A model generated the notes under the pieces. The model was not told the origin of the DNA and made no database searches. It saw only the letters and a program-made list of their open reading frames with translations. DNA of 23,910 nt from a virus. The position numbers and the translations under genes are program-made. Shown one piece after another: positions 11,495-13,720 of the stretch; positions within the stretch are counted from its first letter, which is position 1, and each line of letters begins with the position of its first letter. The stretch spans positions 1 to 23,910 of IMG/VR virus record IMGVR_UViG_3300011114_001034; one strand, written 5' to 3'.

Positions 11495-11504
11495 ATATTT
11501 ATAA
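11495..11504 (+). promoter_or_regulatory. ATATTTATAATAAA motif before the tube gene
   Basis: Exact consensus, 22 bases before the ATG at 11527. The abundant tube protein thus appears to have its own start signal apart from the sheath. Confidence 0.6.
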
Positions 11505-11526
11505 TAAACAAAAACATAAAAACAAA

Positions 11527-12015
11527 ATGGCAGTACTAAGCCCCAACGAAATATTTTTCACCGCATTTGAACCTAAAGTAAAAAATCGCTTTATTATGTA
11601 TGTGGATGGAATTCCAGCTTACACAATTAAAAAGATTGGAGCTGTGGGTGTAACAATGGAGGAAATTGTCTTAAATCACATTAACGTTTACCGTAAAATT
11701 AAAGGTAAAGCTAAGTGGGATGACATTGAAATGACATTGTTTGATCCTATTACACCATCAGGCGCTCAATCAGTAATGGAATGGGTACGTTTACATCATG
11801 AGTCTGTTACAGGCCGCGATGGTTACTCTGATTTTTACAAGAAAGACGTAACAATCAACATTTTAGGACCAGTAGGAGACATTGTATCTGAATGGGTTAT
11901 TAAAGGAGCATTTATTAAATCTGCAAAATTTGGAGACTACAGTTGGGATGATGAAGCAGCAGCTCAAGAATTAACAGTTAACTTATCAATGGATTATTGC
12001 ATTCTCAATTTTTAG
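11527..12015 (+). CDS. Tail tube protein, T4 gp19-like
   Basis: A 162-residue protein, the length of T4 gp19 (163). Features of the tube family: FEPKVKNRFIMYVDGIPAYT at residues about 14-33, VTMEEIVLNHINVYRKIKGK with KWDDIEMTLFDPI after it, QSVMEWVRLHHESVTGRDGY, a KKDVTINILGPVGDIVSEW strand pair, and a final loop KFGDYSWDDEAAAQELTVNL. These form the beta-barrel that stacks into hexameric rings. Sheath upstream and tape measure further downstream complete the usual set. A homing endonuclease gene separates it from the assembly and baseplate genes. Confidence 0.96.
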   Translation: MAVLSPNEIFFTAFEPKVKNRFIMYVDGIPAYTIKKIGAVGVTMEEIVLNHINVYRKIKGKAKWDDIEMTLFDPITPSGAQSVMEWVRLHHESVTGRDGYSDFYKKDVTINILGPVGDIVSEWVIKGAFIKSAKFGDYSWDDEAAAQELTVNLSMDYCILNF

Positions 12016-12044: not shown

Positions 12045-12086
12045 AAATCCTCCTCGCATATTTATAATAAATGAGGAGGATTTTTT
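12045..12086 (+). promoter_or_regulatory. Hairpin masking the endonuclease Shine-Dalgarno, with a motif in the loop
   Basis: Perfect 11-bp stem: AAATCCTCCTC (12045-12055) pairs with GAGGAGGATTT (12073-12083), with a 17-base loop. The 3' arm carries AGGAGG (12074-12079), seven bases before the ATG at 12087. The run of six Ts (12081-12086) makes the structure terminator-like as well. The loop contains an exact copy of the repeated motif. Read-through mRNA from the tube gene would hide the ribosome site or terminate; an RNA started from the loop motif would lack the 5' arm and leave it open. The structure is seen in the sequence; its function is inferred. Confidence 0.75.
12058..12067 (+). promoter_or_regulatory. 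ATATTTATAATAAA motif inside the hairpin loop
   Basis: Exact consensus with preceding C, 19 bases before the endonuclease ATG. If it acts as a -10-type promoter element, transcription would begin near 12073-12075, at or just before the AGGAGG. Confidence 0.55.
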
Positions 12087-12917
12087 ATGCTTAAATGTCA
12101 ACTATGTAATTATGAAACCGATAAACAACAAAAGTTAAGTAAACATACTTCTTTTTATCATAAACTAAGATTTCTTGAATATCTTATTCAAGTAAAATAT
12201 AATGGAATAAATCCATTATGTAAGTGTGGGTGTGGTAATAAAACCAAATATGCTCCTGAATATGGGGATTTTTATAAATTTATAGTTGGACATAATACTC
12301 GAAAAGAAGGACATTTTGGAGATCCTAAAAACCCCAAACGTGTAGCTAAAATTATTGCAACACGTAAAGCAAAATTTGCTTCAGGTGAATATGATTATAT
12401 AATAGATGCTATTAAAAATAAAGATTGGGTAGAACAAGGTAAAAAAATATCTAAAGGAGCTTTAGGTGTACCCAAACCAAAACCTAAAGGATTTGGAGTA
12501 GGCAGAATACAATCAGAAAAAACTAAATTAAAAATGAGCGATTCAGCAATGAAACGAATCATAAAAGAAGATAAAATACATACTTCCAAATTAGAAATAA
12601 CATTCCAAAATATATTACTTGAACAAAATATTGAAAATATCCATTCATATTATACTAAACCTATAAAAGCATTTTATGATTTTTATTTACCTAAATATAA
12701 TATGTTGATTGAAGTAGATGGTGATTTTTATCATTGTAATCCTCTTAAATATCCTAATGGTCCAATATGTAAAACTCAAGAAAAGAATATTAAACGTGAC
12801 AAACAAAAAAACCAATGGGCTAAAGACAACGGTTTTAAATTACTTAGATTTTGGGAAACAGACATTAACAATAACCCACAACAAATAATAGAAACACTTA
12901 AACAAGAACTCACTTAA
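12087..12917 (+). CDS. Free-standing homing endonuclease (zinc finger + Vsr-like/EDxHD nuclease)
   Basis: A 276-residue protein. Residues 4-25 are a C2H2 zinc finger (C4-x2-C7-x12-H20-x4-H25). C45, C47, C49 and H69 (CKCGCGNKT to FIVGH) look like a second metal site. Residues about 123-155 (GALGVPKPKPKGFG, then SEKTKLKMSDSA) resemble NUMOD-type DNA-binding motifs. The C-terminal domain, from TSKLEITFQN (E170) through FYDFYLP (D198), IEVDGDFYH (E209, D211, H216) and KRDKQKNQWAKDNGFKLLRF (D238), is a Vsr-like fold of the EDxHD or PD-(D/E)xK type. Such genes cut alleles lacking them and spread between phages. It splits the tube gene from the baseplate genes, has the only strong Shine-Dalgarno here, and ends in its own terminator. 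The start at 12087 is set by AGGAGG seven bases upstream. Confidence 0.83.
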   Translation: MLKCQLCNYETDKQQKLSKHTSFYHKLRFLEYLIQVKYNGINPLCKCGCGNKTKYAPEYGDFYKFIVGHNTRKEGHFGDPKNPKRVAKIIATRKAKFASGEYDYIIDAIKNKDWVEQGKKISKGALGVPKPKPKGFGVGRIQSEKTKLKMSDSAMKRIIKEDKIHTSKLEITFQNILLEQNIENIHSYYTKPIKAFYDFYLPKYNMLIEVDGDFYHCNPLKYPNGPICKTQEKNIKRDKQKNQWAKDNGFKLLRFWETDINNNPQQIIETLKQELT

Positions 12918-12940
12918 ACTTGGTGGGTTTCTTTTTTTTT
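12907..12940 (+). terminator. Intrinsic terminator of the endonuclease gene
   Basis: AACTCAC (12907-12913) pairs with GTGGGTT (12923-12929), seven pairs including one G-T, around a 9-base loop that contains the stop codon. It is followed by TC and a run of nine Ts (12932-12940). This is the clearest rho-independent terminator in the window. Confidence 0.75.
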
Positions 12941-12943
12941 CGT

Positions 12944-12953
12944 ATATTTATAT
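12944..12953 (+). promoter_or_regulatory. Variant motif ATATTTATAT before the gp26-like gene
   Basis: TATTTATA core intact, but the last base is T and the following CAAA/TAAA is missing. It lies 29 bases before the ATG at 12983, directly after the terminator, so it could restart transcription of the tail genes. Confidence 0.45.
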
Positions 12954-12982: not shown

Positions 12983-13720
12983 ATGGAAAATACCAATGAA
13001 GTCAAATATGACTTTCCAACAGAAGAAATTGAATTGCCATCAAAAGGCTTAGTTTATCCTGAAGACAACATCTTGTCAAGTGGTAAAATTACCATGAAAT
13101 ACATGACAGCTAAGGAAGAGGACATTTTAACCAATCAGTCTTACATTCAAAAAGGCACAGTATTAGACAAAGTAATGCAAGCTTTAATTGTGTCTAAAAT
13201 CAACTACAGTGACTTAATTGTAGGAGATAAAAATGCTATAATGGTAGCTGCTCGCATTTTAGGATATGGTAAAGACTATTCATTTGACTACAATGGAGAA
13301 GAACATACTGTAGATTTATCAACAATTGAAAATAAACCATTTGAATTAAAAAATAAAGGTGTTAATGAATTTGACTTTACTTTACCATCTACAGGTGTAA
13401 ACATCACTTATAAAATATTAACTCATGGTGATGAGAAAAAAATTACAACAGAATTAGACAGTCTTAAAAAAATAAATAAAAACGCTTCACCTGAACTTTC
13501 TACACGTTTAAAATATATGATTACATCTGTTGGAGGAGATCGAGAAGTAAAAACAATTCGAGAGTTTGTAGACAAACACTTGTTAGCTCGAGACTCACGA
13601 GAGTTAAGAAAACATATTAAAGAAACACAACCAGATGTAGATCTGACTTTTTTTCCCGACAGGGACTCAGTTGGAGTCGATATTCCAGTTGGGATTAAGT
13701 TTTTTTGGCCTGACTTCTAA
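12983..13720 (+). CDS. Baseplate hub / tail assembly protein, T4 gp26-like
   Basis: A 245-residue protein (T4 gp26 is 208). The N-terminal part IELPSKGLVYPED, then KITMKYMTAKEEDILTNQSY and DKVMQALIV, is the signature of the T4 gp26 baseplate family ('LPS-G-x-x-Y', 'x-MTAKEED-ILT'). Next come a DLIVGDKNAIMVAARILGYG segment and a small domain with DYNGEEHTVDLS. The end FFPDRDSVGVDIP then IKFFWPDF is a typical C-terminus. The final 74 bases overlap an open +1 frame. It lies after the tube (apart from the endonuclease) and just before the tape measure, where tail-assembly chaperones lie in other tailed phages. Confidence 0.75.
   Translation: MENTNEVKYDFPTEEIELPSKGLVYPEDNILSSGKITMKYMTAKEEDILTNQSYIQKGTVLDKVMQALIVSKINYSDLIVGDKNAIMVAARILGYGKDYSFDYNGEEHTVDLSTIENKPFELKNKGVNEFDFTLPSTGVNITYKILTHGDEKKITTELDSLKKINKNASPELSTRLKYMITSVGGDREVKTIREFVDKHLLARDSRELRKHIKETQPDVDLTFFPDRDSVGVDIPVGIKFFWPDF
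13647..13720 (+). promoter_or_regulatory. Possible programmed frameshift region (two T7 tracts)
   Basis: Both reading frames are open between the TGA at 13644-13646 (downstream frame) and the TAA at 13718-13720 (upstream frame). T7 runs lie at 13648-13654 and 13700-13706. At the second, the Phe tRNA on TTT 13703-13705 can re-pair perfectly after a +1 step (13704-13706) or a -2 step (13701-13703). Either would join the gp26-like protein to the downstream frame. The downstream frame has no ATG until the middle of its conserved part. Confidence 0.4.

Follow-up and report, generated by a model that had tools for sequence, protein, structure and literature searches.

The stretch of DNA analysed here, called the window throughout, comprises 23,910 nucleotides of IMG/VR virus record IMGVR_UViG_3300011114_001034, and its setting is that of uncultured T4-like phages of Flavobacterium-type hosts. 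A gene for a putative homing endonuclease lies between a tail tube gene and a baseplate hub gene, with the following features in order along the DNA:

11496..11508, + strand: promoter-like motif preceding the tube gene, with the same sequence as the loop motif (motif scan)
11527..12015, + strand: T4 gp19-like tail tube gene, structural, upstream of the endonuclease (Pfam match to Phage_T4_gp19 at E 1e-4, short of the curated cut-off; tail tube at the matching place in Immutovirus)
12045..12055, + strand: 5' arm of the hairpin (folding)
12056..12072, + strand: loop with promoter-like motif ATATTTATAATAAA at 12058-12071 (motif scan, leader comparison)
12073..12083, + strand: 3' arm, including AGGAGG at 12074-12079 (folding)
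12081..12086, + strand: U-tract running from the stem to the start codon, its first three T pairing with A's of the 5' arm
12087..12917, + strand: free-standing endonuclease of predicted Vsr fold with an N-terminal C2H2-like zinc finger, 276 aa (Pfam DUF559; PHROG homing/HNH endonuclease families; Foldseek)
12906..12930, + strand: native terminator of the tube gene, displaced to the 3' side of the endonuclease; its loop contains the endonuclease stop codon (terminator scan, empty-site comparison)
12943..12952, + strand: promoter-like motif of the downstream (hub) gene (motif scan)
12983..13720, + strand: T4-type baseplate hub gene (baseplate hub subunit in Immutovirus; Pfam match to T4_baseplate at E 6e-4, short of the curated cut-off)

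A single-sequence phmmer search of the PDB with the endonuclease gave no useful match, and a profile of its family gave weak matches only (E 0.07 for similarity to the I-Bth0305I/Vsr fold); a structure was therefore modelled and used for the search. Foldseek comparison of the predicted model with the PDB returned Vsr (1cw0) as the top match, and I-Bth0305I (3r3p) scored a TM of 0.78 by target length. The modelled protein has a Vsr-like catalytic fold of the I-Bth0305I type. Both occupied and empty tube 3' sites exist among the loci compared.

The original prediction described a perfect 11-bp stem holding AGGAGG, with the motif in the loop, and refolding confirmed it. The arms, AAATCCTCCTC (5') and GAGGAGGATTT (3'), form 11 Watson-Crick pairs without mismatch, plus one closing G-U, around a 17-nt loop, GCATATTTATAATAAAT; AGGAGG falls within the 3' arm, and the ATG of the endonuclease is at 12087. 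With 56 nt folded, the minimum free energy is -16.6 kcal/mol versus -5.9 +/- 2.3 for shuffled sequences (z -4.7), and none of 200 shuffles folded as stably. The G+C-rich stem and the U-tract directly after it are features of an intrinsic terminator, in keeping with the proposal that transcripts might alternatively end at the U run. A terminator's loop of 3-8 nt is absent, the window loop having 17 nt and four inner A-U pairs; in several relatives the hairpin closes a loop of 4-6 nt. A simple terminator scan did not list the window hairpin, its loop being too long, and a search of Rfam with the hairpin gave no match.

Conservation of the hairpin and use of the loop motif

Relatives of the endonuclease are encoded at 80 loci, 79 of which include the gene start; many loci are near-identical, and about 45 leaders are distinct. 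The original prediction staked itself on hairpin and loop motif being kept in homologous genes. By inspection by eye, this held for all but one of the 79 and failed at locus L034, where the loop-promoter hairpin of the endonuclease gene is replaced, upstream of 3001, by a leader of AGAAAT repeats and a separate terminator. Such conservation makes a chance origin of the hairpin untenable. When mixed cassettes were aligned with MAFFT, their arms fell out of register; covariation was therefore assessed by the pairing of own versus swapped arms and in one nearly ungapped group. In five groups, own-arm duplexes were more stable than swapped-arm duplexes (-18.8 versus -9.8, -18.3 versus -11.7, -14.3 versus -8.7, -18.9 versus -10.7, and -14.7 versus -13.5 kcal/mol), with a permutation p <= 1e-4 in each by tests that ignore relatedness. 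In a distant group, at about 35% identity, the ATG is itself part of the 3' arm (tATGGGAATT); pairing holds in 99.2% of the cells of its 10-bp stem, and three pairs are altered on both sides. The one-sided changes that keep pairing there are all G-U, which suggests pairing as RNA. Cassette U-tracts have a median of 5-7 T per 12 nt, whereas ordinary leaders have a median of 2.

The loop motif is not confined to the hairpin. At up to two mismatches, TATTTATAATAAA has 28 matches in the window versus 9.4 expected, and sites lie 17-51 nt upstream of the start in about half of the window's genes; for the endonuclease, the distance is 28 nt. Among 374 leaders of related phages, 254 contain ATATTTAT where 9.9 would be expected, and its distance from the ATG is most often near 30 nt. 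A cultured relative is Flavobacterium phage immuto (Immutovirus), whose sheath is 53.5% identical; its motif copies are commonest in the structural region, where they precede sheath, tube, hub and terminase genes, and are seldom found upstream of those replication genes that were checked. Judged from position and frequency, the motif behaves like a late-type promoter. A literature search on late promoters of Flavobacterium phages and on promoters in terminator loops found nothing on point.

AGGAGG itself had been predicted to be the protected element, a role that the wider comparison does not favour. Shine-Dalgarno (SD)-like 5-mers occur in 18 of 76 cassettes overall and in none of the 29 of the distant group; they are present in 9 of 374 leaders of close phages and, within the window, before 2 of 25 genes, the endonuclease and one other. 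Bacteroidia ribosomes do not recognise the SD; in Flavobacterium-type ribosomes the anti-SD is sequestered, and initiation relies on adenines upstream of the start and on little structure around it (PMC9976891). Because these phages and hosts show almost no SD use, AGGAGG seems likelier to be the purine arm of a stem resembling a terminator than an SD; stand-alone terminators of similar look (purine arm) occur in these phages at L100 and L159. Masking of the start by the hairpin is still plausible, since structure at the start itself inhibits initiation in these hosts. Some cassettes (the window, L009, L117 and L258) do place AGGAGG at SD spacing despite their SD-ignoring hosts. To our knowledge, an extended SD is used in Flavobacteriales only at rpsU, by ribosomes lacking bS21.

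The insertion site and the families that share the cassette

At endonuclease-free loci, a terminator follows the tube gene in 73 of 75 cases, at a median of 20 nt past the stop codon, and is usually followed by the motif and the hub gene. Compared with these empty sites, the hairpin in the window occupies the place of the tube terminator, which has been displaced to behind the endonuclease. The motif lies inside the hairpin in 11 of 76 tube 3'-end terminators and outside it in the other 65; all 11 directly precede an inserted gene, namely an endonuclease gene at 3 loci and one other gene at 8. This other gene, seen at L099, L103, L105-L107, L110, L141 and L143, encodes 168 aa (MKLIDILNEL...), lies at about 2950-3480 in L099 and is without a Pfam or PHROG match; a gene similar to the L099 type follows an HNH endonuclease in L164. 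That the hairpin is merely the tube gene's own terminator was considered and rejected, because GIY-YIG copies at the sheath/tube junction carry it where most empty gaps have none (57 of 66 endonuclease-free gaps are without a hairpin).

The region 3' of the endonuclease varies. In the distant phages of L016, L036, L056 and L068, about 50 nt of the hub gene's own leader accommodate TATATTTA, the ATG and a terminator hairpin. At L023, L025 and L055, what comes after the tube-endonuclease pair is not the hub gene but a large ORF of 527-530 aa, possibly a terminase; this ties the endonuclease to the 3' end of the tube gene rather than to the junction. The endonuclease-hub gap of L030 and L078 holds a short frame that starts like the endonuclease zinc finger and may be left over from a second copy.

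When viral contigs were scanned for the layout CCTCCT - ATTTATAATAAA - AGGAGG, 29 were returned, of which 23 were examined. An endonuclease-like gene came next wherever the sequence sufficed for classification; the exceptions were L252, with no open frame directly after the cassette, and L243, with an unclassified 229-aa product. Behind the cassette, an HNH-type family occupies the same tube-gene site as the Vsr-like family (L163-L195), and a GIY-YIG family lies at the sheath/tube junction (L258-L267). The cassettes of a Vsr-like (L200) and a GIY-YIG (L258) gene share 47 of the 55 nt that precede the ATG, whereas the flanks of two similar cassette pairs match at only 21-24 of 98 and 31-32 of 100 positions, which is chance level. 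This difference indicates a shared module, and the common ancestry of the control cassette raised in the original prediction gains from it. Whether a portable 'promoter in terminator loop' module of approximately 45-55 bp has moved, or is shared, among the unrelated Vsr-like, HNH and GIY-YIG homing endonucleases of Bacteroidota T4-like phages is, in our estimate, evenly balanced. Such a module would permit insertion into structural operons without expression from them, in non-SD hosts, and would include start-in-stem forms with a nearly leaderless RNA begun in the loop.

Leader folding was also compared across four long phage contigs with 724 genes, 182 of which had the motif and were usable; endonucleases were labelled from motifs and similarity, four being added by hand. 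Endonuclease leaders were more stably folded than the others (median -8.7 versus -4.0 kcal/mol, p 1e-7), and their start regions were less accessible (p 3e-5). Only 9 of the 33 motif-bearing endonuclease genes had a leader at -14 kcal/mol or below; thus, the strict cassette belongs to some endonuclease families, not all. On contig G002, which carries L027, a PhoH-like ORF near 97685 on the minus strand begins inside a hairpin of great stability that includes the motif; this ORF has 592 aa versus 226 aa in the window, a possible insertion within the gene.

Proposed expression of the endonuclease and competing readings

We consider it somewhat probable that the hairpin is part of an insulated cassette from which a free-standing homing endonuclease starts its own expression, with an internal promoter inside a terminator-like hairpin. 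From the sequence we infer promoter activity, a start site, termination and a translation block, which would act as follows. Polymerase arriving from the tube gene would meet the terminator-like hairpin and its U-tract, and most transcripts should stop; the 3' end of the tube mRNA would then be set here rather than at the native terminator displaced by the insertion. In any read-through RNA, the start codon would adjoin a stable stem, or lie inside it in many relatives, and translation should be poor. The endonuclease would instead be translated from a separate transcript initiated at the promoter-like motif in the loop; such an RNA would lack the 5' arm and so could not fold the hairpin. The motif is positioned as expected if, as originally predicted, the gene start is concealed only on read-through RNA. 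The endonuclease transcript would end at the old tube terminator while the hub gene retains its own motif, so that the insertion would disturb the late operon little. Against this scheme stand the long 17-nt loop closed by only inner A-U pairs, the cassette-free L034, and the like layout at the non-endonuclease L099-type gene.

The hairpin could instead be a compact overlap of terminator and promoter that ends the tube transcript, with the loop promoter saving space and masking playing no role. This agrees with the U-tract and terminator position, with the hub leader of distant phages, which already packs motif, terminator hairpin and ATG together, and with the presence of the layout at a non-endonuclease gene. 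It does not readily explain why the start codon itself lies within the 3' arm in the distant group, why several other endonuclease genes mask their start without a clear U-tract, or why the motif lies outside the hairpin in the remaining 65 tube 3'-end terminators; we rate it as unlikely. An I-TevI-like early/late switch with a concealed SD site, as originally predicted, seems quite improbable. AGGAGG is correctly spaced in the window and some relatives, and I-TevI, segB and mobE offer precedents; however, the SD is scarce in cassettes and leaders alike and ignored by Bacteroidia ribosomes. As for timing, the upstream tube gene is structural and carries the identical promoter-like motif, so that the sequence gives no sign of an early/late switch.

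Loop placement is equally compatible with cleavage, and the motif is A/U-rich; it might thus be a leader or RNA-processing element whose cleavage in the loop, rather than a new start, frees the endonuclease start. We hold this to be very improbable, given that the motif occurs downstream of terminators and before many separate genes, at variable distances from the ATG, and is most frequent among the structural genes of the cultured relative. I-TevI represses its own expression from an operator that overlies its late promoter (PMC2988022), which gives some ground for viewing the hairpin as a DNA palindrome, either an operator bound by the endonuclease itself or a remnant of a homing site. The stem sequence varies freely, however, G-U pairs are present, and unrelated nucleases share the layout; an operator palindrome was rejected since it is complementarity and not sequence that is conserved, and the palindrome reading as a whole is barely credible.

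If the self-starting cassette is real, the T4 rule that a start is hidden by a hairpin and expressed only from an internal promoter would extend to phages of non-SD hosts, joined with terminator features. The cassette would be older than the endonuclease families or cross between them, meaning that regulation spreads too, not the nuclease alone, and it would provide a sequence signature for locating such genes in uncultured phages.

Comparison with known systems

In T4 I-TevI, I-TevII, I-TevIII and segB and in Aeh1 mobE, a hairpin covers the ribosome-binding site and a promoter yields RNA that lacks the 5' arm (PMC2988022). The window shares with this T-even set a stable hairpin over the translation start region and a promoter-like motif past the 5' arm, and the predicted resemblance to I-TevI control is upheld in this respect. 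No conserved SD is sequestered by the stem: AGGAGG is present in the window, but SD-like 5-mers occur in 18 of 76 cassettes. The cassette also differs from the T-even set in its endonuclease families, its SD-independent hosts, the terminator-like U-tract in its hairpin, a start codon that is often in the stem, and an upstream gene that is structural rather than early or middle; moreover, one cassette is common to three unrelated families. Two further cases are related. A stable hairpin lies just upstream of the endonuclease start in seg43(25) of Aeromonas phage 25, and the internal terminators of T4 mobE/segF may limit endonuclease transcripts; as described in the review, the elements are separate in both, and the promoter is not in the loop (PMC2988022). 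The protein resembles I-Bth0305I and other Vsr-fold homing endonucleases in its predicted catalytic-domain fold, but most members here add an N-terminal zinc finger, and sequence similarity is very low (E 0.07). The logic of a hairpin with an internal promoter is already known, including at free-standing genes: segB and mobE are free-standing, as is the window gene, and precede it as examples (PMC2988022), so the novelty first claimed on that ground falls away. What is new is the non-SD host lineage, a U-tract of terminator type, start codons placed within the stem, and one cassette across three unrelated families.
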